A stretch of DNA of 64,000 bases from Stygiobacter sp. Its GTDB lineage: Bacteria; Pseudomonadota; Alphaproteobacteria; Rhodospirillales; Magnetospirillaceae. This document shows, piece after piece, positions 31,901-46,587 of this stretch. Position numbers and translations under genes: made by a program. The stretch is taken from assembly GCA_006218045.1 (NCBI GenBank), contig VBWB01000004.1, forward strand, positions 203,770 to 267,769. The letters run 5' to 3'. The notes below the pieces were generated by a model. That model searched no databases. It saw nothing but the letters and a program-made list of their open reading frames with translations, and was not told where the DNA came from. Within the stretch, counting starts at the first letter, position 1, and each line of letters begins with the position of its first letter.

Positions 31901-34900
31901 TCAGGCTGTGAACACGAGGACGGCCATGGCCCCGGCCACCGGCAATTGGTTGGGTGCCAGGGCGACCGAGCCGTCGAAATGGCCGTTGAGGCTGATGGCG
32001 GCGACCGAGGTCACCCGCGGGTCCAGATAAAGCAGGCGCACCACCATGGCGGCTTCCACCGTCTGGCCGAACGCCCAGCCCAGGCCGTCGGGACCGCCCA
32101 GCACCGGCTGGAAGAAGCTTTGCATCTGTGCCTCCATCTCGGCCTGAACGGCGTTGCGGCGATCCGCCGACACCGATGCGTACACCTGGACGTTCACCTC
32201 CATGGCCACGTAATCCGGCCCGCTCACGCTGATCCGACCGGCCAACGGCGCCAGACATCGTTGCCGCAGCGCTGTCGACACCAGATCGAGCAAGGCCGGG
32301 TCGGCATAGGGCCGGGGGGTGGCGGAGCGGGGCAGCACGGCCACGGCGATCCCGCCCCGGTCGGTGGTGCGGGCGCGGGCGCGGGCCACCTGTGGGCTGG
32401 CGGCGGTGGCCAGGGTGGCGAAATCCTCGATCTGCACCGCCTGATCATTGGCTTTGACCAGGGCCGGGCCTTGGCGGTTCAACTGCGCCACCGTGTCGCC
32501 ATCGACCCCGCCCCGGGCGGCGACCGGGTTGAAGACCTGCTGGATGTCCGAGATGCCGGGCTTCAGCACGGTCAGGATGCCGGCTTCCACATTGCCGGCC
32601 AGACCATTGGTGCTGGCATAGCTGGCGGCGACGATGTTGTTGTGTCCGGCGGGAGGCACCATGCCGTTGCGGCCGTCGCCGAAGGTGATCAGGCCATTCT
32701 GGCTGTCCAGGGTATAATGCCGACTGGCCGGGCCGCTGAAGGCGAAATTGTCCACCTGGGTCCAGGGGATCGGAACCTGGGCTGTGCTTTCGGCGGTTCC
32801 CGCCTGATTTCCCGAGGCCTCGCCGGCCAGGCTGTCCAGGAGGGAGGTCGTCGAGGATGCGCCCTGATCGGAGCGCGCCATGGTCGCGGGTTCCAGCACC
32901 ACCAAATCGAGACCGGCCAGAACCGGGACATGGGACAGTTGGAACGACTGGGACGGGCGCTCGATGCTCGATCCCAGCACCTCGTCGATGATGGTGGTGC
33001 GATTGCCGGCCATGACGCTGTTGGGATAGAGGCCTCCCACCACCGTCCTTTGGGTTGGATTGGGGTTGTCGACGCGGAACCAGAAGGCGGTTTCCGAATA
33101 CAAGGTGGCGGCAATCATGGCGGCGGGAACGGTGAAGCCGACGATTCCCGATCGCGTCAGGCCGTCGGTGGAATCGTCGACGGACAGGGCGCACCACGTG
33201 GCGCCGTCGAACCACCACCATTCCAGGGCGGGATGGATGCTCCGGGTTTCCTCGGCCATCTGGACGTAGAGCCGTAGTGGCTGGCCGGTGGTGTACTCGG
33301 CGAAGCCCCCTGGGTCGAAACCGAGGAAGAAGGAACTGAAGGCCAGATCCACCGGCTTGTAAGGGCTGAAGCGGAAGCGGCTGAGGGTGAAGCTGTTGTA
33401 GGTCCAGAACTGGCTGGCCCGCGACGTGTAGGTGTAGCCCAGGCTGAGCGAGCGGATATAGGGTGGCGCATAGGTGCTGGGCGTGTAGGTATAGGAAAAA
33501 TTCACGCCTTCCGTATTGTTGAGATAGGTGATGACCTCCGGCTTCAGGGCGGCGGGCAGCACGGTGTCGGGAATGGCGTTGATGGCCTGATCCACCCCTT
33601 GGGTGGTGATGGTCCCGATGATGCCGTAGCCGCCTTCGGCGATCACCACCCGCACCCACAACCCGGTTTCACCCGCCACGGTGGCGGGGGCCATGGCCGG
33701 ACACAGGAAGCGGACCCAGGTCGGCCCCTGGGCGGCGTTCCGCCGCAATTGGTCGGTGGTATCCTCGAATTGGTGCGTTGCCCGGTCGGTGGGGGTGGCG
33801 TTGAGCGAAAGCCAGGCGCCGCCATCCCAATATTGCCAGGTCAACATCACCGGGTAATCGGCGCTGACCGTCCGCAGGTCGAAATTAAGGGCGATGCGCG
33901 CGCCCTGGCGTGAGAACAGATTATCCGAACGGATGTAGAAGGAATCCTCGGTGGCCGGCGTCTCGCCGAAGGGATAGGCGCCGTTATTGATGTTGACCTG
34001 GACCAGATTGGCCATGGCGGTCTGCACCGGGATGTTGCTGCCGGCAAAACCGCAACTGGCCCCGGTGACCACCGGCAACTGGCGCGACAGGGCCGTCACC
34101 ACCTGGACCAGCGGGGCGGGACAGACCAGCAGCCAATAAAGCGGGGTGGGATCGGCCTCTGCCATCAGGTCGGCGGTGAACCCAGCCTTCCGCCCGGCCT
34201 GGGCATACAATTCGGCCTGGACCTGGGCCACCGTTCGGGGCGCTGCCGCCGGCATGACCGACAGGGATATCTCCAGGCGCAGTCCGTCGCCCGATCCCCG
34301 CATCACCGCGCCCAGCGGGGCTAGGTCACCGTCGAACCATTGCTGGAAGTATTCGGGAAGCAGGTGGCTGCCGGTCAGGGTGATGGTCAGCTCCTGCAAG
34401 GCAGGGTCGGGTTTGAACAAGGCCGGATCGCCCATCATGAACCAATGGGGCAGGGCACGTTCCGCCGGATCGCTGTCGGCGGCGGGAAAGACCGGAACCG
34501 CCTGCCCGACGGTCAGGGCGGGCAGGGCGTTGATGTATTGATCCTGTGCCGGCAGGATGGTCAGGGCGGCATTGATGGTCGCCGGCACCACCAGCAGATC
34601 GGCATCGGTCTGGAAGCGCAGATCTTGGGTGGGGGCGTTCAGCACCGCGGTTTCCGCCGGCACCGGACGCGGCGGCTGCCCCCGGTGGAGGACGAAGGTC
34701 AGGGGGGCGCGCGCCTCGACCGGCGGTCGCAGCCGCAGACCGAGGAACTGGAACAGAGCCAACCGCCGCTGGTTCGGCACCTGATTCTCCATGTCGGCCA
34801 GATAGCCGGCCAGCAGGGAGAACAGCTTCAGAAGCACCAATCCCATATCGGTGCTGACGGCGGAATCCCGATCCGCCGGCCAGTATTTGCTCCAGTCAGG

Positions 34901-34978
34901 GCAATAGGCTTCCGCCAGGGTAAGGGCCTGCTGGTAGAACTGATCGGAAGATCGGAAATCCAGGCGCGGATCGGTCAT
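31901..34978 (-). CDS. Large baseplate J/gp6-like protein (Afp11/Pvc11-like)
   Basis: A 1025-residue protein. The N-terminus (DQFYQQALTLAEAYCPDWSKYW, then DMGLVLLKLFSLLAGYLADMENQVP) is the standard opening of eCIS baseplate components. Residues ~750-1000 form a baseplate-J-like domain: ISDIQQVFNPVAARGGVDGDT, IEDFATLATAASPQVARARA and MEVNVQVYASVSADRRNAVQAEMEAQM. The middle holds several beta-rich jelly-roll-like segments. It is the main wedge protein of the baseplate. Start ATG overlaps the coiled-coil gene stop by 4 nt. Confidence 0.87.
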   Translation of the reverse strand: MTDPRLDFRSSDQFYQQALTLAEAYCPDWSKYWPADRDSAVSTDMGLVLLKLFSLLAGYLADMENQVPNQRRLALFQFLGLRLRPPVEARAPLTFVLHRGQPPRPVPAETAVLNAPTQDLRFQTDADLLVVPATINAALTILPAQDQYINALPALTVGQAVPVFPAADSDPAERALPHWFMMGDPALFKPDPALQELTITLTGSHLLPEYFQQWFDGDLAPLGAVMRGSGDGLRLEISLSVMPAAAPRTVAQVQAELYAQAGRKAGFTADLMAEADPTPLYWLLVCPAPLVQVVTALSRQLPVVTGASCGFAGSNIPVQTAMANLVQVNINNGAYPFGETPATEDSFYIRSDNLFSRQGARIALNFDLRTVSADYPVMLTWQYWDGGAWLSLNATPTDRATHQFEDTTDQLRRNAAQGPTWVRFLCPAMAPATVAGETGLWVRVVIAEGGYGIIGTITTQGVDQAINAIPDTVLPAALKPEVITYLNNTEGVNFSYTYTPSTYAPPYIRSLSLGYTYTSRASQFWTYNSFTLSRFRFSPYKPVDLAFSSFFLGFDPGGFAEYTTGQPLRLYVQMAEETRSIHPALEWWWFDGATWCALSVDDSTDGLTRSGIVGFTVPAAMIAATLYSETAFWFRVDNPNPTQRTVVGGLYPNSVMAGNRTTIIDEVLGSSIERPSQSFQLSHVPVLAGLDLVVLEPATMARSDQGASSTTSLLDSLAGEASGNQAGTAESTAQVPIPWTQVDNFAFSGPASRHYTLDSQNGLITFGDGRNGMVPPAGHNNIVAASYASTNGLAGNVEAGILTVLKPGISDIQQVFNPVAARGGVDGDTVAQLNRQGPALVKANDQAVQIEDFATLATAASPQVARARARTTDRGGIAVAVLPRSATPRPYADPALLDLVSTALRQRCLAPLAGRISVSGPDYVAMEVNVQVYASVSADRRNAVQAEMEAQMQSFFQPVLGGPDGLGWAFGQTVEAAMVVRLLYLDPRVTSVAAISLNGHFDGSVALAPNQLPVAGAMAVLVFTA

Positions 34979-35175
34979 TGATGCTCCGTCAGCATTTCTT
35001 CAAGAACCTGGATGGCGCCGGTGATGCGCTGCAAGGTATTTTGCAGATCGCCCCGCCGTTGTTCCAGGGCGCGCATCTGTTCCAGACCGGAATCGTATTC
35101 CCGTCTCAAACGAGTGATCCGATCCTCGATGGTGGATTTGGAGGGGCCTGAGCCTTCGGCTGGGGGAGTGGTCAT
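34975..35175 (-). CDS. Small coiled-coil protein of the eCIS baseplate region
   Basis: A 66-residue protein. After a Pro/Ser start it is one long helix with heptad spacing (IEDRITRLRREYDSGLEQMRAL, LQNTLQRITGAIQVLEEML), predicted coiled coil. The ATG at 35175 is chosen over further upstream codons because of its position 17 nt after the gp25 gene and a GGAAA site; the next gene overlaps its stop. Small helical proteins at this position are seen in eCIS loci and may be chaperones or pins. I do not recognise a family. Confidence 0.65.
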   Translation of the reverse strand: MTTPPAEGSGPSKSTIEDRITRLRREYDSGLEQMRALEQRRGDLQNTLQRITGAIQVLEEMLTEHQ

Positions 35176-35192
35176 CACGTTTTCCTTGGGGG

Positions 35193-35603
35193 TTATTTCA
35201 GAAAGAAGGGATAGACGAGGTTGTCCGGACGGTTGCGGTCGCGGATCAGGTAGCCCACGTCGACCAGCAGGCACTGGCGGTTGCTGGGGTCGATGGTGGC
35301 GCTGATTTCGGTCACCTGGATGCGCGGTTCCCAGCGGTCCAGGGCCTGACGGGTGTAAAGCTCGGCCAGACTGGTGGTCGAGGCGTTGCCGGCGGCGAAC
35401 AGCAATTCGTTGATGCGGCAACCGAAGCCGGGCAGCATCACCCGCTCGCCCGGTGCCGTCTGCAAGATGATCAGAATAGCCTGCCGGATGTCCTCGGCAT
35501 CGGCGGCCATCTGCACCCGTCCCGCTTGGGTGGTGACGGGAAAGGCCCAGCCCCGTCCCAGGAAGTCGGCGTCGGAACTCTGCTGTGCGCTTTGCCGGGG
35601 CAT
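35193..35603 (-). CDS. Baseplate gp25/GPW-like protein (Afp9-like)
   Basis: A 136-residue protein of the gp25/lysozyme-like wedge family: FLGRGWAFPV at the start, DAEDIRQAILIILQTAPGERVMLPGFGCRINELLF (the defining 'iLxTapGERvmrpdfG' motif) and WEPRIQVTEI. In T4 gp25 and Afp9 it initiates sheath polymerisation on the baseplate. It lies 4 nt after the PAAR gene. Confidence 0.92.
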   Translation of the reverse strand: MPRQSAQQSSDADFLGRGWAFPVTTQAGRVQMAADAEDIRQAILIILQTAPGERVMLPGFGCRINELLFAAGNASTTSLAELYTRQALDRWEPRIQVTEISATIDPSNRQCLLVDVGYLIRDRNRPDNLVYPFFLK

Positions 35604-35607
35604 GGTG

Positions 35608-36018
35608 CTATCCGATCATGACGGTGGACAGGCCGGCCACCACCACCTGTGGTGGCGGCGCCTGGGGGCCGGCTGGTGGTATGTCGTGGCAGGTTTCGCA
35701 GAAATCACCCATGCGGGCTGCTGCCCGCCCCCCCAGGCGCACGGTCAGGCTGCCCATGATCACCCGTCCCAGATTGGTGGGCGGCACCTGGAAGGCGCCG
35801 GTGGCGGGGATGTGCGGCGGAATATTCTGGGCCATGGAACCCACCACCGCCGCCGGTCGTCCGTTCACCCGCACAGTGGGGCAGGTGTTCATGGTGATCT
35901 TGCCGTTGAAGGGGAAGGGTTGCGGCGTGGGCACCGGGCCGCCGGGCGACGGCACCAGGACGATGTGGATATCGGCGGCGTTGACGATGCTGTCACCGAG
36001 TTTGGCGGCGGGGGGCAT
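35608..36018 (-). CDS. PAAR-type spike tip protein (Afp10-like)
   Basis: A 136-residue protein with PAAR organisation: MPPAAKLGDSIV, a TCPTVRVNGRPAAVVGSMA repeat, GSLTVRLGGRAAARMGD and Cys/His residues in DFCETCHDI that can bind the tip metal ion. It caps the VgrG-like spike and sharpens it for membrane puncture. There is no toxin extension. Embedded between gpV-like and gp25-like genes as in Afp/PVC. Confidence 0.88.
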   Translation of the reverse strand: MPPAAKLGDSIVNAADIHIVLVPSPGGPVPTPQPFPFNGKITMNTCPTVRVNGRPAAVVGSMAQNIPPHIPATGAFQVPPTNLGRVIMGSLTVRLGGRAAARMGDFCETCHDIPPAGPQAPPPQVVVAGLSTVMIG

Positions 36019-36027
36019 GGCGCGTCC

Positions 36028-36642
36028 TCAGTTCAGGTCGATCATGGTGGCGGAAAGCTTGATGCTTTGGCCGCCGTTCAGTTTGGCCGAGGCCGCCGTC
36101 AGGTCCAGTTTGACGCTGCCGCTGCTGGTCTTCACCACCACCTCGGCGCCGGTGATGGTGACCGTCCCCTTGGCGGTGATGGTGACGTCGCCCTGACTGT
36201 CCAAGGTGATGTGGTTGTGGGCGGTGTCGATGCGGATGGTGTTCCGCTTCTCGTCACTGAGGGTCAGTTGTCCCGAGGCGGAATCATCCAAGGTCAGGGT
36301 TTTGCCCTGGCGGGTCTTGATGACGCGGACGTCTTGCTGCTTGTCCTTGGCGACGGGCGGGGGCAGGGCGCCGTTCCACAGGAAGCCCAGCACATAAGGC
36401 TGGTCGGGGTCGCCGTCGCCGAAAGCCACCAGGGCGGAATCGCCCTGGTTGGGCAGGAAGAAGGCGCCGTAATCCTTGCCGCCGTAAAAGCTCAGGATGG
36501 GAATCCAGTCGGATTCGATCTGCTGACCGCTGACCATGAACCGCACCTTGATCCGCCCCATGCCCTTGGGGTCGGTGGTGTCGCTGACCTGGGCCAGGGT
36601 CACGCCGGGTGCCCTGTCCTGAAACCAGGGTTGCTCGCTCAT
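36028..36642 (-). CDS. Spike protein part 2: baseplate assembly protein V-like (Afp8 C-terminal half)
   Basis: A 204-residue protein. It has an OB-fold-like start (APGVTLAQVSDTTDPKGMGRIKVRF), KDYGAFFLPNQGDSALVAFGDGDPDQPYVLGF and a repetitive beta-prism end (ITLDSQGDVTITAKGTVTITG), the gpV/VgrG C-terminal needle. Afp8 and VgrG are one chain; here the gpD-like and gpV-like halves are separate genes overlapping by 4 nt, closer to the P2 phage arrangement. Confidence 0.88.
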   Translation of the reverse strand: MSEQPWFQDRAPGVTLAQVSDTTDPKGMGRIKVRFMVSGQQIESDWIPILSFYGGKDYGAFFLPNQGDSALVAFGDGDPDQPYVLGFLWNGALPPPVAKDKQQDVRVIKTRQGKTLTLDDSASGQLTLSDEKRNTIRIDTAHNHITLDSQGDVTITAKGTVTITGAEVVVKTSSGSVKLDLTAASAKLNGGQSIKLSATMIDLN

Positions 36643-37682
36643 GCTCCGGTTCTCCTCAGGCGGATATCGGTGGCGTAGCCGCTCTTGTCGTCATAGCGGT
36701 GGGTGGCGGCGGTGACGTAGTAGATACCGTCGAAGCGGGGACTGAGCCCCTTCAGGCGGATATTGACGCCGGCGTTGAGGTTGGGATCGCCGACCAAAGT
36801 GGCGCTGCCCTGGATGAAGCGGTTGAGATTGGCCTGATATTGGGCGTCGGCCACCACCTGAAGGGCTTCGACCGAGGTGATGCTCAGCTGTTCGATGGTG
36901 ATGGCCGAATCGGGGAAGTCGCCCGCCATGCCGTAGCCGTTCTGGCGCCCGCCCATGCGGTCGCTGGGGCCGCCGGCACGGCTGGCGGCGCTGATGGGCT
37001 GGTTGTTGGCGGGATCGAAGCTGCGCACGGTGACCGTGCTGCCTTGGGTGGGCACCTTGAGATCCAGGTCGACCCGGTCCACGTCGCGGGGAAAATCAAG
37101 GGTGCGGATCGGGCTCTGCCCCTCGGCCGAGGGCCGGAACACCAGGGTGGTTCCGTCCATCAGCAGTTCGTGGTTGATCTGGGCGCCACGTTTCAGCAGG
37201 AACTGGTAATTGCTCTGGCGACGCTGCTGCACATAGCCGTTGATCTCGGTGCGGGTGCCGCGGGCCGAGACCGCCAACCCCGCCGAGCCGGCCACCTGGG
37301 ACACGATGTCGTTGTCGCTCAGATTCTCGAACACTCGGGTGTGGTTGCCGAACTGGAGCCGGTACATGCGATCGAAGCCACGGATGGTGGCGGTGGAATA
37401 AGCGCCGAAACGGGGTTCGATGGCGGTGATTTCACCGATGATCACCGTTTGCAGCCGGTCCAGGCCCAGTTGGATGGTGATGTCGTCGCCGGGCTTGAAG
37501 GTATCCAGGTTGATGCCCTGCCAGTTGCCGCCTTCCGACATCATGCTGAAGGTGAAATCGAACATGCCGGGCATGTTGATCTCGTTTCGCACCTGTACGT
37601 CGCTGATGGCGGCCACCACCGCCACCGGCAAGGGCGTGCGTTCGCGCAAGATGGTGAAGGCCCCGGTCTGGACGCTAGGCAT
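36639..37682 (-). CDS. Spike protein part 1: late control gpD-like (Afp8 N-terminal half)
   Basis: A 347-residue protein of the phage GPD/VgrG N-terminal type: IGEITAIEPRFGAYSTATIRGFDRMYRLQFGNHTRVFENLSDNDIVSQVA, then the YVQQRRQSNYQFLLKRGAQINHELL segment. It forms the hub of the spike. ATG 37682 overlaps the LysM gene stop by 8 nt and is preferred; an in-frame ATG at 37709 would add nine residues and overlap by 35 nt. Confidence 0.88.
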   Translation of the reverse strand: MPSVQTGAFTILRERTPLPVAVVAAISDVQVRNEINMPGMFDFTFSMMSEGGNWQGINLDTFKPGDDITIQLGLDRLQTVIIGEITAIEPRFGAYSTATIRGFDRMYRLQFGNHTRVFENLSDNDIVSQVAGSAGLAVSARGTRTEINGYVQQRRQSNYQFLLKRGAQINHELLMDGTTLVFRPSAEGQSPIRTLDFPRDVDRVDLDLKVPTQGSTVTVRSFDPANNQPISAASRAGGPSDRMGGRQNGYGMAGDFPDSAITIEQLSITSVEALQVVADAQYQANLNRFIQGSATLVGDPNLNAGVNIRLKGLSPRFDGIYYVTAATHRYDDKSGYATDIRLRRTGA

Positions 37683-38319
37683 TGGCGCCGCTCTCGAAGC
37701 TTTCGCCATGGGTATCGATGATCACCAGCGTGCGACCGATATCCGTGGGGCGGGGAAAATTGAGCGGGTCGTAGATTTTATTGGCGTCGGCGATCAGGCG
37801 CCATTGCGACGCGTCGCCCAAGGTGGTCTGGGCGATCAGGTACAGACGGTCGTTCTCGGTCACCGTCCACAACTGGCGGCAGTTGAAATAGCCGCGGGCG
37901 GCCAAATCCTGCTGCTCGGTCAGCACCGACTTGAAGGTGACGGTCAATTCGGCCCGCACCGGGATGCCGGAGGGCAGAAACATGGTGAATTTCTGCTCCA
38001 GCTTGGTGATCAGTCCGGTGAACAGCGGTCCGGCCCAGGTGAACACCACCACCGGCGGTTCCTTGCGCACGCCGGTTCCGGTACTGGGCATGGTCAATGC
38101 GGCGATGCGATTGGTGAGTTGGCGGACGTCGGACTTCTTCTCGAAGGTGTCGAAGAACAGGTTGACCACCAGATCGTCATTGTTGGTGCGCTGGAACTGG
38201 ATGTTGGAGCCTTCGCCCTGGACCACCACCGAGCGGTTCAGCGACAATTCGGTGGGGTTGTACATGACCGGGATTTCCTCCCGCGTCGATTCGACGATGA
38301 TCCGGGCTTTTTCCAGCAT
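37675..38319 (-). CDS. LysM-containing tube-baseplate adaptor (Afp7/Pvc7-like)
   Basis: A 214-residue protein. MLEKARIIVESTREEIPVMYNPTELSLNRS and GSNIQFQRTNNDDLVVNLFFDTFE match the contractile injection system tube/adaptor domain. The end (RQLWTVTENDRLYLIAQTTLGDASQWRLIADANKI, then GRTLVII) is a LysM-like module. In Afp7 this protein joins tube and spike. The start codon overlaps the stop of the Pro/Arg-rich gene (TAATG). Confidence 0.87.
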   Translation of the reverse strand: MLEKARIIVESTREEIPVMYNPTELSLNRSVVVQGEGSNIQFQRTNNDDLVVNLFFDTFEKKSDVRQLTNRIAALTMPSTGTGVRKEPPVVVFTWAGPLFTGLITKLEQKFTMFLPSGIPVRAELTVTFKSVLTEQQDLAARGYFNCRQLWTVTENDRLYLIAQTTLGDASQWRLIADANKIYDPLNFPRPTDIGRTLVIIDTHGESFESGANA

Positions 38320-39287
38320 TACAGCCCCCGCCGGTAGCGTTCGATGCCGTCACGGCGATCCACCGCCCGCACCACGTGATCGGTGATGGCGCGCAGCAGC
38401 TCGGGCGCGCGCAGGGCATCGCGCAGGGGCGTGCGCCAGGGGCTGGTCTGGGAAATCTCGTGCACCACCTTGCTGTGGACCTGTTGGGTGATGCGCTGGA
38501 TCTGCTGGTGGACCTCCTGGCCGAAGGTGCGGGGGGCGCGGCGATAGGCCAGGACGGTACCTTGGCGCGGGCGGTAGCTGGTCAGGCTCAGGGAGACCGG
38601 GCTGGGCTGCCAGCTTTGGCCGGGCATGGCCAGGACCAGATAGGTGGGTTGCCGCGCCGCGGTGGCCCCGGTGGACTGGCCCGCCATATTCGGGCGACCG
38701 CGTTCACGGCGGGGAGCGGCGGGAGAATGCCAGGCCCGGGCGCGTTCCAACAGATGGTGGGCAACGCTGTTCAGGGTGGAAAACCACTGGGTACGTTCCG
38801 GCTGGCCCGGTGGCCGGGGCGGCGGGCGGGGCACCGCGTTCGGCGGCGGCAATGATGGACCGGCCTTTCCGGTCGCCATGCGGTCGAGCAGATTCAGGAC
38901 GTCGCGGTGCCAGCCAGCCGGCGGCGCCCCCCGTTCCGAGGGACGCTCGCCCAGGCGCAGGATGCGCAGCTCGATCACGGTTCGCGGTGGAGCAGGCCGA
39001 GGCGCGACGGCGCGGGGCGGGCGCGGCGTGGGCATGAAACGCTGGCGTTCCGCCTTCAGAACCATCTGGATGGTGTGCAGCAGGTGCAGCCGGTCCCGTC
39101 GCGTGGCCGCCCTGTTCGCCGCCGGACGGGGCGATGGCGGTCGCAACAGGATCAGTGCGGTCTCATGGAGATTGGCCTGTCCCAGACGGCCCAACCCTCC
39201 CAAATTCCGCAGCCCCGCGGTCGCCTTCAGGAAGGGACGGCGGCCCAGCGAGGCGGAGCGCAGGGGAATCTGCGGCGGGCGGATCAT
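38319..39287 (-). CDS. Pro/Arg-rich eCIS protein of unknown function
   Basis: A 322-residue, strongly basic protein encoded between tube 2 and the LysM adaptor, overlapping both by 3-4 nt, so its reality is well supported. The N-terminal 200 residues are Pro/Arg/Ala-rich with short helices. The C-terminal part has QEVHQQIQRITQQVHSKVVHEI, a helix suited to coiled-coil pairing. The frame continues upstream of ATG 39287 but runs antisense-free into tube 2 and is rejected. By position it could correspond to Afp6, or be a tape-measure-like or cargo-binding protein. I do not recognise a family. Confidence 0.65.
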   Translation of the reverse strand: MIRPPQIPLRSASLGRRPFLKATAGLRNLGGLGRLGQANLHETALILLRPPSPRPAANRAATRRDRLHLLHTIQMVLKAERQRFMPTPRPPRAVAPRPAPPRTVIELRILRLGERPSERGAPPAGWHRDVLNLLDRMATGKAGPSLPPPNAVPRPPPRPPGQPERTQWFSTLNSVAHHLLERARAWHSPAAPRRERGRPNMAGQSTGATAARQPTYLVLAMPGQSWQPSPVSLSLTSYRPRQGTVLAYRRAPRTFGQEVHQQIQRITQQVHSKVVHEISQTSPWRTPLRDALRAPELLRAITDHVVRAVDRRDGIERYRRGL

Positions 39288-39733
39288 GAGCCGCCGCTCT
39301 TGATGACGCCCTGATGGGCCAGGACGAAACGCTGGGTGGCCACCAGGGATTGTCCGGCATCCAGGGCCGGACCTTGCCATTCCTTCGGCCAGGCGGAAAA
39401 GAAATTCCAGCAGATGGCCGGCTGGCCCTTGGCGTCGCGCAAATAGATGGAACCATTCTTGCGCTGGATATTGCCCTTGAGGGTCGCCAGGTACCAGGTC
39501 CACATGGGGTCCTGGGCGGTCAAGCCCGCCTCCAGGGTCAGGTCGCCATAGGTGACCTGACCGGGAAGCTTGTATTCGGTGTCGTTCACGCCGCCCTCGC
39601 GTACGGAACGGATCTCGACCTGGGACTGAAGACCGCTGACCGAGGAGAAGCCGCCGACCTGGATGCCTTCTATCTCCACCAGGAAATTGAAGGTGCGGAA
39701 GGGGTCCTGGGCGGGGCCGGTGGGCTTGGCCAT
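39284..39733 (-). CDS. Inner tube protein 2 (Afp5/gp19-like)
   Basis: A 149-residue tail tube protein: DPFRTFNFLVEIEGIQVGGFSSVSGLQSQVEIRSVREGG at the N-terminus, a TYGDLTLEAGLT strand and RKNGSIYLRDAKGQPAICWNFFSAWPKEWQGPALDA near the end, all typical of T4 gp19/Afp tube subunits. It differs from tube 1 (40285-40734), as expected where a distinct tube protein makes the ring next to the spike. Its ATG lies 1 nt after the stop of the -1 frame of the assembly chaperone. Confidence 0.92.
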   Translation of the reverse strand: MAKPTGPAQDPFRTFNFLVEIEGIQVGGFSSVSGLQSQVEIRSVREGGVNDTEYKLPGQVTYGDLTLEAGLTAQDPMWTWYLATLKGNIQRKNGSIYLRDAKGQPAICWNFFSAWPKEWQGPALDAGQSLVATQRFVLAHQGVIKSGGS

Positions 39734-39734
39734 G

Positions 39735-40252
39735 TCAATCCTCCAGACTTACGCCGGAGCGGTGTTCCTCGGAGTTCATCGCTTGGTTGATCCGACTGAT
39801 GTGTTCGCACCAATGGCGTCGTTCCGCGTGTTCCATGTTCAGCAGATCGTCCCGCGACCAATGGAAGTGATAGGCGATGAAGGCTATTTCGGCGTAGAGC
39901 TGGTCTGGAACGTCTTGGAGTTGAACTTTCCCGGCACGGAATCCTCCCCGGCCTCGCCTTCGATCTCATTGATGCGGTTGTAGACCTTTTGCAGGAAGTT
40001 GAAGTCCGCCGAGAACAGATCCTCGATCACCTTGGTGTTGATCATGTCCAGGCTGCCCAGGCGGGTGACCACCCGTGACAGCACGATCACCGACAGATAG
40101 GCGGGGTTGTTTTGCACCCGGTGGTCCCTGAGCGGCAAAATCTCGTCGGCGGCGGTGGCCAGCCGCATCACCCCTTCCCGGTGCAAGGTGCCATCACCAT
40201 CGCGATAACCGATGGGAAGGGTAAACTCGAATTCCGTAGAAATTGCGCTCAT
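39735..40252 (-). CDS. Tail assembly chaperone, long form made by -1 frameshift (G-T-like)
   Basis: Ribosomes slipping -1 at 39932-39926 (G GGA AAG) would leave the short frame and read VQLQDVPDQLYAEIAFIAYHF... to the TGA at 39737-39735, giving ~172 residues. The added 63 residues contain YAEIAFIAYHFHWSRDDLL and MEHAERRHWCEHISRIN, the pattern of a small DUF6760-like protein normally found at this place in eCIS operons. This frame is closed by TGA at 39968-39966 and has no ATG, GTG or TTG before an ATG at residue 31 of the extension, inside the conserved part. An SD-like GGGGAGGA lies 9 nt before the slip site. This mirrors lambda gpG/gpGT and dnaX. Confidence 0.72.
39884..40252 (-). CDS. Tail assembly chaperone, short form (zero frame)
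   Basis: A 122-residue protein: EFEFTLPIGYRDGDGTLHREGVMRLATAADEILPLRDHRV, then LSRVVTRLGSLDMINTKVIEDLFSADFNFLQKVYNRINE, the pattern of the phage tail assembly/eCIS chaperone group encoded between the two tube genes. The zero-frame C-terminus after the slip site (FNSKTFQTSSTPK) is low complexity. ATG 40252 with GTGAG upstream is preferred over GTG 40264. In tailed phages such chaperones bind the tape measure before tube polymerisation. Confidence 0.82.
   Translation of the reverse strand: MSAISTEFEFTLPIGYRDGDGTLHREGVMRLATAADEILPLRDHRVQNNPAYLSVIVLSRVVTRLGSLDMINTKVIEDLFSADFNFLQKVYNRINEIEGEAGEDSVPGKFNSKTFQTSSTPK
39926..39949 (-). promoter_or_regulatory. Programmed -1 ribosomal frameshift signal
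   Basis: On the minus strand an SD-like GGGGAGGA (39949-39942) is followed after 9 nt by GGGAAAG (39932-39926). In the zero frame it is split G GGA AAG, the X XXY YYZ form used by lambda G-T. Both spacing and heptamer are as expected for an SD-stimulated -1 shift. Confidence 0.72.
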
Positions 40253-40284: not shown

Positions 40285-40734
40285 CTATTTAACACGCGTC
40301 ATATAGTCCATCGCAAGCTCAAGAGTTTCAACCAAAACGTCACTGCTGGCGGCGTTCAGCCCCGACGTCTCGTATTTGCTCGGCCAGGCGTTGATGACGT
40401 TCCAGCGGCATTTGTCGCTGCCATCGGGGGCGATCAGGATCAGCGACACGTTTTTCTTGGCGGATTTGCCGCCGGACCCTTGTTGCAGTACCTGCTGCTG
40501 CCAGTTGTAGAGATCCATGGAATCGGTCAGCCCCTTCTTCAGGCTGAGGCGGCCATAGCTGGACAGTCCCGACAGCGGTCGTTTGTAGATGGGGTCGGTG
40601 CCTTCGCGGTAATCGACGCTGTCAATGGTGATGTCGGGGATACTGGCCTCGGCAAAGGCCGCGATCTGGATGCCGGCGATCTCGACACGGAAGCGAAAGC
40701 CGCGATATGGATCGGTGAGAGTGGAGGTTGCCAT
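40285..40734 (-). CDS. Inner tube protein 1 (Afp1/gp19-like)
   Basis: A 149-residue tail tube protein: DPYRGFRFRVEIAGIQIAAFAEASIPDITIDSVDYREG, PIYKRPLSGLSSYGRLSLKKGLTDSMDLYNW and CRWNVINAWPSKYETSGLNAASSDVLVETLELA are the family pattern. It should polymerise into the inner tube that carries cargo. It follows the sheath gene by 32 nt with its own GGAAAAAGGG site. Confidence 0.93.
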   Translation of the reverse strand: MATSTLTDPYRGFRFRVEIAGIQIAAFAEASIPDITIDSVDYREGTDPIYKRPLSGLSSYGRLSLKKGLTDSMDLYNWQQQVLQQGSGGKSAKKNVSLILIAPDGSDKCRWNVINAWPSKYETSGLNAASSDVLVETLELAMDYMTRVK

Positions 40735-40766: not shown

Positions 40767-42380
40767 TTATGAGCCCGAGTCGGGGCCGGCGGTCTTTTGG
40801 GTGATGCGGATGATGACGAATTCCGCCGGATAGACCGGAGCCAGGCCGATATCGATGTACAACTGCCCCAGCTGGCGGGTTTCCGGGGGGTTGTTGGAGG
40901 CATCGCAGGTGACGAAGAAGGCCTCGGCGGCCGAGGCGCCGAACAGGCCGCCCTGTTGCCACAACGTGGTCAGGAACGCCGTGATGTCGCGGGTCACCGA
41001 CGACCACAACGGTTGATCATTACGTTCAAAAACAACCCATTGCAGGCTGTTCTTCAGGCTTTGCTCCACATAGATGAACAGCCGCCGGATGCTGACATAG
41101 ATCCACTGGCTGTCCTGGGACAGGGTGCGGGCACCCCAGATGACATTGCCGTAATTGATCTGATTGCGCACGGCGTTGATGCCGTTGGGGTTCAGCATGT
41201 CCTGGTCGGAATCGGTCAGCGCCAGATTGACCGCCACCACCGAGCGCAGGGCGCCGTCATTGACGCCGGCCGGCGACTTGTAGACACCCACATTGGCATC
41301 GGTATAGGCATAGCGCCCGAGGACCGGACCGGACGGCGGAACGGGCACGTTCAGCGCGGCGATGGGATTGAATATCCACAGCCAAGGGTAATAAAGGGCG
41401 CCATAGCCGGAATTCAGCGCCGTGCCGTTGCCGCCGGTGGTTGCCCCGGCGCCGGATTTGAATGAGGTGATGCCAGACACATCCAGGCCGAAGGGCGGGT
41501 CCACGGCATAGAACAGGCTGGTCAGCCCCTCGCAGAACTGGAGGTCCAGATTGATCAGGGTTCCCTGGGCCGCCTGATTGCTCTTGTTGGAACTGTCGGT
41601 CAGGGTGACGCTGTCCGGGACGGCCAGCAGGCTCAGGCTCTGCACCGTACTCAGGGTATTGACGGAGAGCGACAACTGATTGGAAGCCGCGACGCCGCCG
41701 GTCAGGGCCTTGGGCGCCGAGGTGTTGTCCGGTCGCTTGCCGTCGCTGGAGGCGACCCGGATGAACATGGAGTTGGAATTGATCCGGGTGACGAAGCCGG
41801 GCCCGGTATCCGTGCAACCGGAAAAGGATTCCAGCACATAGCAGGATTTTCCCGCCACCGTGGTGGCTGCCAAACCGTTCTGGCGGACGAAACTGACCAT
41901 CAACTGGGTGGGCAGGTCCACCTTGGTCAGGTCGGTCACCGCGTCGATGGTGGCGGCATCCACCGCCACCTGAAGTGAGAAGATCGGCGATGGGGTGTTC
42001 GCATTTCCGCTGGTCGGGACGCTGTTGGCGATGTTGACCAGAATAGTATTGCCCCACACCCCTGGGCTGGCGGCGGTAACGGTGGTGCTCCCCAAACTGG
42101 TGGTCGCAGCCTTGCCGCTGCCGGTATCGGTGCGCACCACATAGCAGGCGGTTCCTCCTTCCAGGAAGAACTCGTAGACCGCCCAGGGGGTGAAGCCGAA
42201 CCAGATGAAGCCGCCGAAAAGCCGTTGGAACGCGTTCCAACTGGTGATCAGGGTCGGCTGATTGACCGGACCCTTTTCGGTGATGCCGACGAAAGCGGCC
42301 ACCGAGGTCGAGGCGCCCTGGATGCTGCGCGTGCTGGGCACCTCTTGGACGTAAATGCCGGGATGGGCATAGTTAGGCAC
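40767..42380 (-). CDS. Contractile sheath protein (Afp2/3-like)
   Basis: A 537-residue sheath protein. The N-terminus is AHPGIYVQEVPSTRSIQGASTSVAAFVGITEKGP with FQRLFGGF; the C-terminus is WVVFERNDQPLWSSVTRDITAFL, FGASAAEAFFVTCDASNNP and QLYIDIGLAPVYPAEFVIIRI, all defining the sheath fold. Translation starts at GTG 42380 with a perfect AAAGGAGG 6 nt upstream, fitting high expression. Only one sheath gene is present, whereas Afp has three. Confidence 0.95.
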   Translation of the reverse strand: MPNYAHPGIYVQEVPSTRSIQGASTSVAAFVGITEKGPVNQPTLITSWNAFQRLFGGFIWFGFTPWAVYEFFLEGGTACYVVRTDTGSGKAATTSLGSTTVTAASPGVWGNTILVNIANSVPTSGNANTPSPIFSLQVAVDAATIDAVTDLTKVDLPTQLMVSFVRQNGLAATTVAGKSCYVLESFSGCTDTGPGFVTRINSNSMFIRVASSDGKRPDNTSAPKALTGGVAASNQLSLSVNTLSTVQSLSLLAVPDSVTLTDSSNKSNQAAQGTLINLDLQFCEGLTSLFYAVDPPFGLDVSGITSFKSGAGATTGGNGTALNSGYGALYYPWLWIFNPIAALNVPVPPSGPVLGRYAYTDANVGVYKSPAGVNDGALRSVVAVNLALTDSDQDMLNPNGINAVRNQINYGNVIWGARTLSQDSQWIYVSIRRLFIYVEQSLKNSLQWVVFERNDQPLWSSVTRDITAFLTTLWQQGGLFGASAAEAFFVTCDASNNPPETRQLGQLYIDIGLAPVYPAEFVIIRITQKTAGPDSGS

Positions 42381-42518: not shown

Positions 42519-43160
42519 TCATCCCGGCCTCATCACGCTCTCGTCCATGACAACGTCGAGGACGGTGGTCGTCATTGTATCGATCCTCAGGGTTTCCGAG
42601 CGGTCGGCATGGTTTGGCGCCGAAAAGGTCAGGGCGACCACGGTCGTACCGGGCAATGTCCCGGTCAGGGCCAGGGCATAGCGACCGTCATAGGCGCTGC
42701 CGATGGTGCTGTCCCCCGGTCCGCCGGCGGTTCGGGTGGCGATGGTCCGGTCTTTACCGCCGCGACTCCGATAGCGGGCGATAATGGTGGCACCGGACAA
42801 CGGCAGGATCGCACCATCCGCCGTACCGGCGCGGACTTGGCCCCGGATCACGGTGGCCCAGGCCGGATAGGGATAGGCCGGATCAGGGTCCAGACGGCAA
42901 AGGGCGATGGCCTCGGCCAAAGGCTGGTCGGTGGTGATCGGGGCGGTCAGGCCGATCTGGCCGGGAAAAAAGCCCGGGGCCGACACCTCCACAAGGTGAG
43001 GCCCCGGCTTCAATCCGGTGAAGGCGTAGAATGCCTGAGGCTTGGCGTGGGGCAGGCAGGGCCGGCCATCCAGACGGAACCGGGCCCCGGCCCCCTCGGC
43101 CGGCTGCCGGCTATAGCCGTCGATCAGTTGGACCACACCGCTGAGGCGAACCTGGATCAT
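42519..43160 (-). CDS. Carboxypeptidase-regulatory-like domain protein of the eCIS
   Basis: A 213-residue protein with two beta-sandwich units of the carboxypeptidase-regulatory/transthyretin-like kind: VQLIDGYSRQPAEGAGARFRL ... FYAFTGLKPGPHLVEVSAPGFF, then VIRGQVRAGTADGAILPLSGATI ... SAYDGRYALALTGTLPGTTVV. It is coupled to the cap gene by a 4-nt overlap. A 138-nt gap (42381-42518) with no gene precedes the sheath start. Possibly decorates the particle end; no enzymatic residues. Confidence 0.7.
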   Translation of the reverse strand: MIQVRLSGVVQLIDGYSRQPAEGAGARFRLDGRPCLPHAKPQAFYAFTGLKPGPHLVEVSAPGFFPGQIGLTAPITTDQPLAEAIALCRLDPDPAYPYPAWATVIRGQVRAGTADGAILPLSGATIIARYRSRGGKDRTIATRTAGGPGDSTIGSAYDGRYALALTGTLPGTTVVALTFSAPNHADRSETLRIDTMTTTVLDVVMDESVMRPG

Positions 43161-43828
43161 GGCGGCAACTCCCCGCCGACCGGGCCGTGATCAGCCGGGG
43201 GCGGGGCGAAATCGCCATCGGCGCGCTCCACCATGTCGGCGGCGGTGGAAATCCCCGAAGGCAGGCGCACCGGCGACAGCCGGTACAGCTTGGTCAGGCG
43301 ATAGGATTTGCCGGGAAAGCCGGCCCAGACATCGCGCAGCACATGAAAGGATTCGGTCTCGGGGACGATATCGATGCTGGCGTTGCCGGTGGCGCGCAGC
43401 AACGGATCCGACCAGGGGCCTTCCAAGGCGGCGATGTCGTGGAACAACCGGACCAGTTTGTCCCCCAGCACCAGTTCCAGTTCCGACGATTTGCCGTAGG
43501 GCACCATCATATAAATCAAATCCACCACCAACGGCGCCGCCACGCTGGTCAACGCCGCCGGTCGCCCGTCGCCAGCGGGACGACGGGTCAAGGTGGGGGG
43601 CAGATTGCGCAGCCAGGGGTTTTGGTCGATACGGTAGAGGAACAACGACAAACGGTTATCGTCATAGCTGTCGATATCCGCCGGCGAATCAAACACCACC
43701 GCCGAATCCGCCGCCAATTCGCCGATATGGCTGCGGATCAGCCGGGCCAGGGCGCTGCTGACCCGGAAGATGACCTGCCCGGCATCGACCGGGCCGCCGT
43801 CCTCGGCGGAAAGGGGGGGCATACTCAC
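43157..43828 (-). CDS. Tube/sheath terminator (Pvc16/Afp16-like, DUF4255)
   Basis: A 223-residue protein with the DUF4255/Pvc16 N-terminal domain: VIFRVSSALARLIRSHIGEL at the start, ADIDSYDDNRLSLFLYRIDQNPWLRNL, and VDLIYMMVPYGKSSELELVLGDKLVRLFHDIAAL. In Afp16 this protein caps the distal end of the tube and sheath and fixes particle length. The start is GTG 43828 or ATG 43822. As in many eCIS loci it lies near the operon start, before the sheath gene. Confidence 0.9.
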   Translation of the reverse strand: MSMPPLSAEDGGPVDAGQVIFRVSSALARLIRSHIGELAADSAVVFDSPADIDSYDDNRLSLFLYRIDQNPWLRNLPPTLTRRPAGDGRPAALTSVAAPLVVDLIYMMVPYGKSSELELVLGDKLVRLFHDIAALEGPWSDPLLRATGNASIDIVPETESFHVLRDVWAGFPGKSYRLTKLYRLSPVRLPSGISTAADMVERADGDFAPPPADHGPVGGELPP

Positions 43829-43837
43829 CGGGCGCCC

Positions 43838-44653
43838 CTACAGCACGAACAGGGTGTTGGTGGGGCTGACGAATTGCGGCTGGGTATTGCCCACCTGTGC
43901 ATAGACGGTGACCGAAGGATCGCATTGGGTCTTGAGATAAATGTAACGCATGTCGCGGAACTGAAGGGGGGGCGTCGGTCGCCAGGTGATGAAGGCCACC
44001 ATGCTGAAATCCTGCGTGCCGCTGCCGGTGGTGCTGGTCCTGACCAGGATGCGGCGGTTGCCGTAGGACAGGGTGGACAGCGGCAGGGCGCTGCCGTCGT
44101 CGCTGTAAAGCGTGACGCCCAGCGCCTCGGAGAAATCCGGCCCCAGGGTCCATTCGACCTCACCCTCGGGGGCGCCCAATTCGATCACCACCTGGGCGCC
44201 CGGCTTGGCCCCCTTGACGGTGAACAGCACGCCGCGATTGTTCAGGATCTGCGGTGGCAGAACGGCGCTGATCCGACCGTTACGCCATTGCATCGGGCTT
44301 CCGTTGCCGAAATAGGCCAGCACCACCGCGTCGTTGTTCAAGCTGCAATCACCTTGGATGAACTTGACGTCGGCATCGACCATCAACTGCAAGGTCAGAG
44401 TGAAGTCGTTGCTGGCCGGGCCCGAGGCCGAGGTCCGCACCGACAGGAGGTTGTCGTTGAACGAGATGGCCTGAATGCAATTGGATGTCGTGTTCGGGGC
44501 GTCGGGAATGACGTCGTAGGAGAAGCCCAGGCTGTCCCCGCTGTCCACGCCCAGGCACCACATGATGCCCGGCGACGAGAAGGAGATGGTGAGGTTGGAG
44601 TTGGCTGCCACGTTGTTGAACAGCAACACCACCGGAATCAGTTGCGCGCGCAT
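43838..44653 (-). CDS. Two-domain beta-rich protein, eCIS operon (unknown)
   Basis: A 271-residue protein with no signal peptide. Its N-terminal half reads 'LFNNVAANSNLTISF...IMWCLGVDSGDS' and its second half 'LFTVKGAKPGAQVVIEL...VEWTLGPDF'. Both follow the pattern hydrophobic strand, turn with Asn/Gly, hydrophobic strand, then W-x-x-G or WC-x-G. The C-terminus (MRYIYLKTQCDPSVTVYAQVG) resembles that of the next protein. These look like copies of one beta-sandwich. It has GAGGG upstream. Function unknown; a decoration or appendage protein is possible. Confidence 0.6.
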   Translation of the reverse strand: MRAQLIPVVLLFNNVAANSNLTISFSSPGIMWCLGVDSGDSLGFSYDVIPDAPNTTSNCIQAISFNDNLLSVRTSASGPASNDFTLTLQLMVDADVKFIQGDCSLNNDAVVLAYFGNGSPMQWRNGRISAVLPPQILNNRGVLFTVKGAKPGAQVVIELGAPEGEVEWTLGPDFSEALGVTLYSDDGSALPLSTLSYGNRRILVRTSTTGSGTQDFSMVAFITWRPTPPLQFRDMRYIYLKTQCDPSVTVYAQVGNTQPQFVSPTNTLFVL

Positions 44654-44671
44654 ATCATTGCCCTCGTCCGG

Positions 44672-45313
44672 TCAGAATTCGATGGCGAAAGAGCTGAGGC
44701 CGATCAGGCTGGTCCGATCAACCCGGGTTTCCAGCGTGGCACTGGCGTCAGGCGGCAGACTGATGTGGCCGCGCAAGTCGTGCTGGAAGGTACGGACATA
44801 GATCTGAATCTGGATTTCCTGGCAGGCGGCGTTGGTCTGCAAGTACATCTCGCGGGCATTCACCAGGAAACTCGACAGATACAGAACGGGGTCCTTGGTG
44901 GTGCTGATGGACATGCCCACCATCCCCTGACCCGGCCCCTTGCACCAGATGGCCCGCTGATCCTCGCGGATGTTCAGGGTCATCTTGCTGTTGGCGCGCA
45001 GCCCCGACAGCGTGATGGTCACGGGGTGCGAGGGAACCTCGCCTTCCAGGTCGGTGGGGTCGCAGGCGGGCGGCGGTGCCGCCATGGGAACCTGGGGCTG
45101 CGTGCTGGCGACGGGCGGGGTCGCCGGGGGAGTTTCGGGAGCCGCCGGCAGATCGGATGACGCATACTCCCGCCATGGGGGCGGTGCCGGCTGCTCGGTT
45201 GCCGTCGCGGCGGCCATACCGTCCTGGAATGCTGCCTTGCCTTTCGAGTCCGTGCCTTTTCGGGCATCGGTCGCGCCGGGACGGTTACCCTTTGGATCCT
45301 TGTCGTCGTCCAT
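44672..45313 (-). CDS. Pro-rich N-terminus plus single beta domain, eCIS operon (unknown)
   Basis: A 213-residue protein. Residues 1-95 are disordered-looking: a charged start (MDDDKDPKGNRPG) then Ala/Pro/Thr-rich. Residues 95-213 hold one beta domain: VTITLSGLRANSKMTLNI, IWCKGPGQGMVGMSIS and REMYLQTNAACQEIQIQIYV, paralogous to the 271-residue protein. ATG 45313 is used (AGGA 8 nt upstream) although the frame is open further 5'. The flexible N-terminus is unlike a sheath or tube part. Confidence 0.6.
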   Translation of the reverse strand: MDDDKDPKGNRPGATDARKGTDSKGKAAFQDGMAAATATEQPAPPPWREYASSDLPAAPETPPATPPVASTQPQVPMAAPPPACDPTDLEGEVPSHPVTITLSGLRANSKMTLNIREDQRAIWCKGPGQGMVGMSISTTKDPVLYLSSFLVNAREMYLQTNAACQEIQIQIYVRTFQHDLRGHISLPPDASATLETRVDRTSLIGLSSFAIEF

Positions 45314-45323
45314 GGCCGGAATC

Positions 45324-45710
45324 CTAGGCGGTGGGGAACGGAATGAACTGGTTTCCGAGCACCAGGGAGCCCCGGCCCGAATATCCCAGGAAGGCATAAG
45401 ACGCCGTCACACTGGGCTGGATGCCTTCGACGTTGAGCGCAAGGCCGGTTCCAATGGCGGTGACCCACAGCACGAACTGCAATCCCTGGTTGGCGGCACT
45501 CGTCGGGGCTTGCCCGATGAAGGATAGGCTTGGGCCGGCAAGAGTGAGGTTGATCAGCGCCGGAGTGGCGGAGGCCGTGTAGGGCATCACCTGGAAGGGA
45601 GCGTTGCTGCTGTTCTCGAAGCTGTTCTGGTCGGTCAACCGCAACTGGGCCTGAAGGGCCGTGACGCTGGAAAACTCATAGAACTGGAACGCGATTTGAT
45701 AGCCCTGCAT
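45324..45710 (-). CDS. Small beta-rich protein, eCIS operon (unknown)
   Basis: A 128-residue protein (MQGYQIAFQFYEFSSVTALQAQL at the start, AYLGY-like AYAFLGYSGRGSLVLGNQF near the end) with alternating hydrophobic residues, no Cys and no signal peptide. GGAGTGA lies 8 nt upstream of the ATG. It lies between the first gene and the Pro-rich protein and follows a GC-rich hairpin. No family recognised; its place suggests a particle component rather than cargo. Confidence 0.55.
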   Translation of the reverse strand: MQGYQIAFQFYEFSSVTALQAQLRLTDQNSFENSSNAPFQVMPYTASATPALINLTLAGPSLSFIGQAPTSAANQGLQFVLWVTAIGTGLALNVEGIQPSVTASYAFLGYSGRGSLVLGNQFIPFPTA

Positions 45711-45782
45711 GTGCTGTCACTCCAGAAAACCGCCGGGCCTGGAAACCGCCGGGGCGGGGAAGCATGAAGCCGCCTGAACCGT

Positions 45783-45808
45783 CCTGCCCCGCGCTCTGGC
45801 GGGGCAGG
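45783..45808 (-). terminator. Intra-operon hairpin after the first eCIS gene
   Basis: Arms CCTGCCCCGC (45783-45792) and GCGGGGCAGG (45799-45808) pair perfectly around a 6-nt loop in the 122-nt gap after the first gene. No U-tract follows on the minus strand, so it could be a leaky terminator or an mRNA-protecting 3' structure. Confidence 0.45.
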
Positions 45809-45832
45809 CGGCCCGGGTCGTCGTCCGGCTGC

Positions 45833-46261
45833 TTACTGTTGATTCCAGTAGAACAGGGTCGGAGTGGCGTTCACCACCTGGGACATGGCGCCGCCGATGG
45901 AGGCGGTGACCAGAACATTGGGGTCGGCCTGGCTGGCCAGGGTCAACGTATAGATGCCATTGGTGGCCGCCAGATAGCCCTGGAGGGTGAACTGGAGGGC
46001 GCCGCCGCCGCCGCCGGCGCTGCTGGTCAGGAAGGTGACCGAACCGGAGGTGATGTTCATCTGTTGCAGCGGCAGGGACCCCGACTGCGAGGCGACCTGA
46101 ATGCCAGCCGAGGTCGAAAAGGTCTTACCGGTGCTCCAGGAAATCTTCTGTCCAGCGTCGTTGGTGGCCACGACCACGGCGACCTTGGCTCCGGGGCTCA
46201 CATTGGTGACCTGGAGGATGATGGTTTGATAGACGGTATCGGCAGTATCCTGGGTGGTCAT
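45833..46261 (-). CDS. First eCIS-operon protein, beta-rich (unknown)
   Basis: A 141-residue protein with an excellent ribosome site (GGAGAGG, 6 nt before ATG 46261); codons further upstream in frame are rejected. IILQVTNVSPGAKVAVVVATND followed by KISWSTGKTF matches the 'strand-PGA-strand-W-x-x-G-x-x-F' pattern seen in the second half of the 271-residue protein. SSAGGGGGALQFTLQGYL forms a flexible linker. There is no signal peptide. As the first gene of a ~25.7-kb operon, and set off by a hairpin, it may be made in excess. Confidence 0.6.
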   Translation of the reverse strand: MTTQDTADTVYQTIILQVTNVSPGAKVAVVVATNDAGQKISWSTGKTFSTSAGIQVASQSGSLPLQQMNITSGSVTFLTSSAGGGGGALQFTLQGYLAATNGIYTLTLASQADPNVLVTASIGGAMSQVVNATPTLFYWNQQ

Positions 46262-46587
46262 AACGAACCTCTCCATTGGTGGTGCATATCGTTGCTGTAT
46301 GCATATAAAACGCTTAATCGCTGATATACACATACTGTGGGAGTTGTCATTGCATCATTAAAAATCCAATTGGTCAATTAATATTGGGTTAAATGCCACC
46401 TTAAAGTGTGCGGCATGAGCGCGACCGCTTTTTGCCGGTCGATTCCCGGATCATCCGCAGGGGTGTGGTGTTGACCCGCATTCAGGCGTGTTGCATGAAA
46501 TTCGATTTTGGGGCGTGAAGTGGGGGCCTTTGGGCTATTAAATGTTCAGTCTTGTTTGGCCCTACTGCCGATTGGTGACGATCAACC
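46262..46587. promoter_or_regulatory. AT-rich divergent promoter region of the eCIS operon
   Basis: A 326-nt gene-free region between the eCIS operon and a divergent glycosyltransferase gene. On the minus strand TTGACC (46377-46372), 17 nt, then TGCAAT (46354-46349) form a plausible sigma-70 promoter, about 90 nt before the first gene. The -35 box lies in the near-palindrome AATTGGTCAATT (46368-46379), a possible operator. No promoter was picked for the plus strand. Confidence 0.5.

Follow-up and report, generated by a model that had tools for sequence, protein, structure and literature searches.

The chaperone gene of eCIS operons very probably carries a programmed −1 ribosomal frameshift site, from which both a tail assembly chaperone and a chaperone–DUF6760 fusion would be produced. 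Most ribosomes would finish the chaperone of about 120 residues, and a fraction would shift one base backwards at a G-run heptamer (G GGA AAG in the 64,000-nucleotide stretch of Stygiobacter sp. DNA analysed here, hereafter the window), pushed by an SD-like element some 7–11 nt upstream and, in most lineages, also by a stem-loop; the slipped ribosomes would then continue into DUF6760 and yield the fusion, with a predicted length of 172 aa in the window. If the parallel with lambda gpG/gpGT holds, a length-measuring protein would be coated by the common chaperone, the rarer fusion would recruit tube subunits, and neither product would remain in the particle. Slipping in cells, its efficiency and the resulting ratio, and the role of the two products are those we infer from lambda and P2 (PMC5009743, in the portion available).

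In the window, genes for sheath, tube, spike and baseplate lie in one eCIS cluster with a Pvc16-type gene (Table 1), and the chaperone gene with its overlapping ORF in another frame sits between two tube genes. The zero-frame product matches phrog_508, tail assembly chaperone (3.5e-8), and is 36–62% identical to 30 aligned homologues. The −1 frame, described in a first-pass annotation made from the letters alone as encoding a small conserved-looking domain, matches PF20546, DUF6760 (E 8.4e-19), and weakly Phage_P2_GpE (0.022). That annotation had proposed a chaperone and a chaperone fusion made by −1 slipping, and the anatomy it drew on is all in place: GGGAAAG split as G GGA AAG between the tube genes, the SD-like element 9 nt before it, 63 codons of the −1 frame after the slip until the terminal TGA, and the TGA that closes this frame upstream. 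The only ATG, GTG or TTG codons of the −1 frame are ATGs at 39836 and 39779, both within the conserved domain, and none precedes the conserved part, as had been claimed. The ATG of the downstream tube gene begins 1 nt past the −1 frame stop. By the rate in 14 eCIS ORFs of the window, an in-frame X XXY YYZ would fall within the 27 codons of overlap by chance with a probability of 0.069, and a G-run heptamer with one of 0.038; because this chance amounts to 4–7%, the window taken alone is suggestive only.

Table 1. Features of the chaperone/DUF6760 locus and neighbouring eCIS genes, in window coordinates.
Feature	Coordinates	Strand	Details
Pvc16 N-terminal domain protein	43157..43828	minus	PF14065 5.2e-29
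Tail sheath protein	40767..42380	minus	PF17482 1.1e-15, PF04984 1e-8
Upstream tube protein, gp19 family	40285..40734	minus	PF06841 3e-39
Zero-frame ORF, tail-assembly-chaperone-like (TAC)	39884..40252	minus	122 aa; ATG 40252, stop TAG 39886-39884
TGA closing the −1 frame on its upstream side	39966..39968	minus	
−1 frame encoding DUF6760	39735..39965	minus	open between TGA 39968-39966 and TGA 39737-39735
SD-like element GGGGAGGA	39942..39949	minus	9-nt spacer 5′ of the heptamer
Candidate slippery heptamer GGGAAAG	39926..39932	minus	zero-frame split G GGA AAG; P-site codon is residue 108
Zero-frame stop TAG	39884..39886	minus	within the −1 coding region
Downstream tube protein, gp19 family	39284..39733	minus	PF06841 6.1e-40
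Contractile injection system tube protein	37675..38319	minus	PF19266 3.1e-22
Spike and baseplate genes: GPD, base V, PAAR, gp25, baseplate J	31901..37709	minus	PF05954, PF04717, PF05488, PF04965, PF04865

A single copy of DUF6760, with its frame intact, was found in the genome of the window. Counting that genome, the domain was detected in 3 of the 55 genomes searched from the window's family, in 4 of 289 of its class (3 above the Pfam cut-off) and in 7 of 398 of its phylum (again 3 above the cut-off). Surveys of other phyla found it in 23 of 396 genomes around an Actinopolymorpha locus, 26 of 301 around a Chloroflexi locus, 81 of 188 around a Myxococcota locus (30 places being taken as loci), 15 of 146 around a Nostoc locus and 10 of 196 around a Methanophagales locus. 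A scan of genome contigs yielded at least 47 loci, and among the matches listed are Nitrospira, Phycisphaerales, Thermoanaerobaculia, Chlorobiaceae, Zixiibacteriota, Chthonomonadaceae, Nitrosomonas, Nostoc, Methanophagales and Methanoperedens; a plasmid search with a Nostoc query returned 35 records and adds Paenibacillus, Treponema and Haloferax. With the window's single sequence as query, there was no match among 50,697 phage records and none in viral contigs.

A total of 167 loci were assembled, including the window (L001) and ten second fetches (L057–L066); three of these (L006, L008 and L088) have no DUF6760 match with the profile built here, and 164 were kept. Since the loci include duplicates, counts are also given for clusters at 80% nucleotide identity. 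Using profiles built here, DUF6760 lies in the −1 frame relative to the chaperone and overlaps it in 156 of the 164 loci, from bacteria and archaea, and in all 156 its frame is already open before the chaperone stop. Eight loci fall outside this class: L007 and L112 are in-frame fusions, L081 has G GGG GGC together with GTG/ATG, L082 has an ATG, L084 has DUF6760 in the same frame as the chaperone after a stop and with a GTG, L040 and L145 show by eye the −1 relation and GGGGGAG, and L009 is described below. Eleven further loci outside the motif definition, with both genes recognisable—ten hand-chosen from the 35 plasmid records (L168–L173 and L186–L189) and one from the class search (L183)—all have the −1 relation and a heptamer, which is a G-run in ten and GGGAAAC in one (Haloferax); in four of them (L171, L172, L186 and L188) the stop also coincides with an ATG or GTG. 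L184 has no recognisable chaperone and L185 no DUF6760.

Of the 156 loci, 147 have a heptamer in slip phase near the chaperone end, located in the final 17 codons of the overlap (GGGGGAN 110, GGGGGGN 26, GGGAAAN 11), as do 71 of 80 clusters (47, 15 and 9, respectively). The rate expected from chaperone bodies is 0.9–1.5%, and no heptamer was found at the ends of 240 control ORFs (same strand, at least 120 codons, from the cluster loci), expectation and controls being computed on 16 codons. Together with the frame relation, these counts support the proposed synthesis of a chaperone and a chaperone fusion by −1 slipping. The prevalent site is G GGG GAA/GAG or G GGG GGN, and the window's GGGAAAG is a minority form, a circumstance that, like the downstream stem-loop, goes beyond what the first-pass annotation had described. 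GGGAAAG is highly shift-prone in E. coli according to the available part of PMC5009743. The strict X XXY YYZ pattern is present in the window and in the 24 of 71 clusters with GGGAAAN or GGGGGGN; the other 47 have GGGGGAN, and G GGG GAR departs from the strict pattern, its A-site re-pairing requiring a G-U.

The same bias is seen without conditioning on the heptamer. In 61 of the 80 clusters the last six residues of the chaperone include G-[EGKD]; the residue before that Gly varies, its codon has G as the third base in all 61 (30.0 expected), and the Gly itself is GGG in 58 of 61 (13.5 expected). G-ending codons and GGG despite a varying residue point to selection on the bases and not on the protein. 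In 60 of the 71 clusters the chaperone stop follows the second slip codon directly or after one more sense codon; in the window the stop lies 13 codons past the slip site. The nine clusters counted as lacking a heptamer are L010, L073, L079, L080, L083, L086, L087, L143 and L167, of which L073 and L167 have near-heptamers (G GGG CGA and G GGG AAA) plus stems. The archaeal loci L159–L163, from the survey around the Methanophagales locus, and L171, from Haloferax, have GGGAAAT or GGGAAAC as candidate slip sites; in L160 and L162 the stop is TAG and the −1 frame lacks a start.

The SD-like element had been likened to the stimulator of dnaX, and over the 71 heptamer-bearing clusters it proves to be a position-specific signal. 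Only at spacers 5–13 is mean anti-SD pairing 5′ of the heptamer stronger than under a synonymous-codon null, with z of −4.7 to −5.7 at the peak spacers 7–11 and no excess at 18–28 (the null at spacer 2, an overflow value, was not used). This is a mean effect over clusters: locus by locus, 44 of the 71 are below their own null median, 16 tie and 11 are not below it.

A stem-loop begins ~5 nt 3′ of the slip site in most lineages. When the 50 nt past the heptamer were compared with dinucleotide shuffles, the mean folding z was −3.29, with 56 of 71 clusters below −2; against synonymous recodings of the DUF6760 frame the mean was −3.14, again with 56 of 71 below −2. Control positions gave mean z values of 0.00 upstream (1 of 71 below −2) and −0.22 at +60 (5 of 71). 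The main stem is GGCTACC.CCTCG paired with CGAGG.GGTAGCC. In an alignment of 64 of the 71 clusters (A1, leaving out L001, L002, L004, L159, L160, L161 and L163), 81.4% of cells pair and covariation is 0.225 versus 0.140 (sd 0.009) in shuffles. Two subsets were split by eye after the folds had been seen (leaving out L003, L005, L012, L014, L020, L023 and L034), so that their counts lean towards structure: the main type (A2, 47 rows) pairs in 92.0% of cells with covariation of 0.227 versus 0.137 (sd 0.010), falling to 0.04–0.13 when slid, and ten clusters from the actinobacterial and Chloroflexi surveys (A3) have another stem, GACGTACGC/GCGTACGTC, 87.3% paired, with covariation of 0.167 versus 0.089 (sd 0.016). 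In each of the three alignments, none of 500 shuffles reached the observed covariation. RNAalifold places a stem in A2 (−12.9) and in A3 (−19.8); it predicts no structure on the mixed 64-row A1, in our reading because some rows use a shifted register.

The window differs from this general pattern along with its closest relatives. L001 (the window), L002, L003 and L004 cluster together on the chaperone tree (SH-aLRT 96), share the −1 arrangement and lack a start in the 150 nt that precede the core; L001, L002 and L004 carry GGGAAAG in slip phase. In L003, which is of the window's genus, the matching position reads by eye G GGC AGG, and G GGG GAA lies 15 nt upstream, near the position of the window's C GGG GAG; the slip site thus seems to have moved in L003 while the frame relation stayed. 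The downstream stem is absent in all four loci (synonymous z of +2.42, +0.08, −0.41 and +0.84), and z for the window's downstream region against the dinucleotide null is +1.65. The window would therefore rely on GGGAAAG and the SD-like element with no stem.

A different route to DUF6760, which we consider unlikely, is termination–reinitiation, whereby DUF6760 would be a separate protein restarted at an overlapping ATGA or GTGA, or at a non-standard ATA, GTA or TTA, with the G-run as its Shine–Dalgarno sequence. Homologues with an ordinary start and no heptamer, which the first-pass annotation had regarded as counting against frameshifting, do exist as a minority: a starred clade from the actinobacterial survey (L079, L080, L083, L086 and L087) has a start–stop overlap (ATGA/GTGA) and no stem at z < −2, L010 likewise has an ordinary start and no heptamer, L082 with its ATG looks alike, and L084 has its GTG after a stop in the chaperone frame. 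ATG is present in 7 of the 9 heptamer-less clusters (Fisher p 6e-4, relatedness being ignored). Because of the five-cluster clade and L010, frameshifting would be the prevailing but not the sole solution for the chaperone/DUF6760 pair. Even among the 71 heptamer-bearing clusters, 13 have an ATG and 14 a GTG only, and coupled initiation is possible in these 27; in the other 44 there is no ATG, GTG or TTG between heptamer and core, which argues against a restart. Of the two features that had been singled out for comparison among homologues, the heptamer is thus conserved over the loci aligned, and startlessness is frequent but not universal. No start codon overlaps the upstream stop in the window, where the zero-frame stop falls at the AFIAYHFHW motif, past any possible start position. 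The conserved SD lies, by arithmetic, ~15–21 nt from any would-be start and 7–11 nt before the slip site, which fits stimulation of frameshifting better than initiation, and the G-run would abut such starts by 0–3 nt. On the chaperone tree, which was made by a quick search on 121 columns with the slip region excluded and has 16 of its 77 inner branches starred, there are 19 changes in start presence versus 5 in heptamer presence, with 28 in stop identity, 18 in heptamer type and 13 in the stem. In RefSeq, five plasmid records give DUF6760 a CDS of its own and a sixth has an unnamed small CDS, as a restart would have it; the annotated starts of the six are ATA, ATT, an internal TTG, ATG, GTG and GTG, and the first three (L168, L169 and L170) are likely annotation artefacts of a frameshift.

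The remaining explanations bear on the heptamer itself. Transcriptional slippage, adding a base at the G-run in part of the mRNA, would give the same fusion with no ribosomal slip, and runs of at least five G at the site in the majority of loci, with 12 G in L014, are what it would call for. Such slippage usually requires longer runs, though; there is no long run in the window's GGGAAAG or in the archaeal GGGAAAT/C, and the SD and the stem, placed as for an elongating ribosome, would be left unexplained, and we regard this account as very improbable. Least probable of all, to the point of being scarcely credible, is that the overlap in the window is a decayed or misassembled gene with a coincidental heptamer. 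The chance level given above for the window and its lack of a downstream stem are compatible with coincidence, but the −1 arrangement and startlessness recur in L002, L003 and L004, GGGAAAG is common to L001, L002 and L004, the −1 arrangement extends to 156 loci, and the window's DUF6760 frame is intact and is the only copy found in its genome.

DUF6760 is most likely the eCIS counterpart of the P2 E′ extension, judging by profile matches. P2 gene E has an annotated −1 frameshift giving E+E′ (NC_001895), and its E′ part is PF06528 (2.1e-22). PF06528 is matched by 12 of 28 DUF6760 members (best 1.4e-4), three PHROGs (phrog_1756, 6416 and 10636) are common to DUF6760 and E′, and hhalign aligns the two with a probability of 92.8 (E 4e-7); it is because of these matches that we favour the assignment. 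The chaperone half has a weak tie to Phage_TAC_7, matched by 4 of 31 members (best 0.0043); hhalign gave no alignment of this half with P2 gpE. Neither the chaperone nor the DUF6760 profile matches solved chains in the PDB beyond chance (best 0.68), as would be expected of assembly factors that mature particles do not contain. A reading of DUF6760 as the Cis6/Afp6 plug was rejected, with no PDB match for the single sequence and none for the profile at E up to 1. A physical fusion does occur in nature: in L112:748-1653, immediately below a gp19 tube gene, a T4_baseplate domain (PF12322, 4.6e-13) and DUF6760 (2.9e-8) share one continuous reading frame, and L007:1438-2289 is a similar T4_baseplate-like/DUF6760 fusion, with both matches below the Pfam cut-offs.

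Among known systems, P2 E/E+E′ is alike in that a tail protein is extended by a small C-terminal −1-frame domain, E′ being similar to DUF6760. P2 differs in being a phage, in having a T-run at its annotated slip site where eCIS have a G-run heptamer, in having gene E followed by the tape measure gene T, and in a chaperone half that hhalign does not align. T4-like tail chaperones also reportedly come in two forms, by a mechanism other than frameshifting (so the title of Vladimirov, Gautam and Davidson, Virology 2022, is said to run), and the in-frame fusions in L112 and L007 carry a T4_baseplate domain. The slip heptamer of lambda G/G-T is the same as the window's GGGAAAG, and we know of no DUF6760 in lambda G/G-T. 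The likeness to lambda is in the two-product logic (PMC5009743, available part), the eCIS fusion being a prediction. The lambda frameshift is described for long-tailed phages and not for eCIS. E. coli dnaX has an A AAA AAG-type site, and its shift yields the short product, whereas slipping in eCIS would yield the long one. The dnaX arrangement of upstream SD, heptamer and downstream hairpin (PMC3711429, available part) is similar, although the hairpin is family-wide in eCIS and lacking in the window's clade. The spike plug Afp6/Pvc6/Cis6/Alg6 resembles DUF6760 in being a small protein of eCIS whose gene is close to those of the tube; Cis6 and Alg6 are visible in solved particle structures (PMC8894136 and PMC8894135, available parts), whereas the DUF6760 profile matches no solved chain.

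We found no report of frameshifting in eCIS among the open-licence PMC papers searched. In the available parts of PMC8894136, PMC8894135, PMC11495950 and PMC12210884 the word frameshift is absent; in those of PMC8528098 it is used of a Tc mutation, and in those of PMC13222765 it appears only in a reference. What would be new here is frameshifting of the phage tail-chaperone kind in bacterial and archaeal particles that are not phages, predicted mostly at a G GGG GAR site with dnaX-like flanks. More broadly, we consider evenly poised between right and wrong the proposal that the −1 frameshift is ancestral to the DUF6760-bearing contractile injection particles of bacteria and archaea and shares its origin in a single event with the P2 E/E+E′ frameshift; that it was kept as the heptamer, the stop and the stem sequence turned over, and was replaced in one clade by start–stop coupling and elsewhere by in-frame fusion; and that it sets the chaperone-to-fusion ratio governing tube assembly in these non-phage particles. 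If frameshifting takes place as proposed, tail-type frameshifting would extend from phages to eCIS, archaeal ones included, DUF6760 would gain a function as an E′-type extension, and the ATA, ATT and internal TTG starts in three of the six RefSeq records would be accounted for. Annotated eCIS operons and expression constructs may miss, or wrongly start, an assembly factor. As the signal is compact, injection-particle assembly and length control would be testable by synonymous changes in seven bases.

Several minor observations were made in passing. In the window, the ORF at 38319-39503 has no Pfam match; it is flanked by the second tube gene and the gene for the CIS tube protein, where the Afp gene order would put the Afp6/Cis6 plug. 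Beside the eCIS cluster, at 43838-46333, are several ORFs that look alike by eye, of which the two scanned are also without a Pfam match. The DUF6760-like match of L009, around position 1524 and below the Pfam cut-off, reads by eye as WLAYHFHW followed by a GpE-like stretch, and L009 may represent a transitional form linking P2 E′ with DUF6760.
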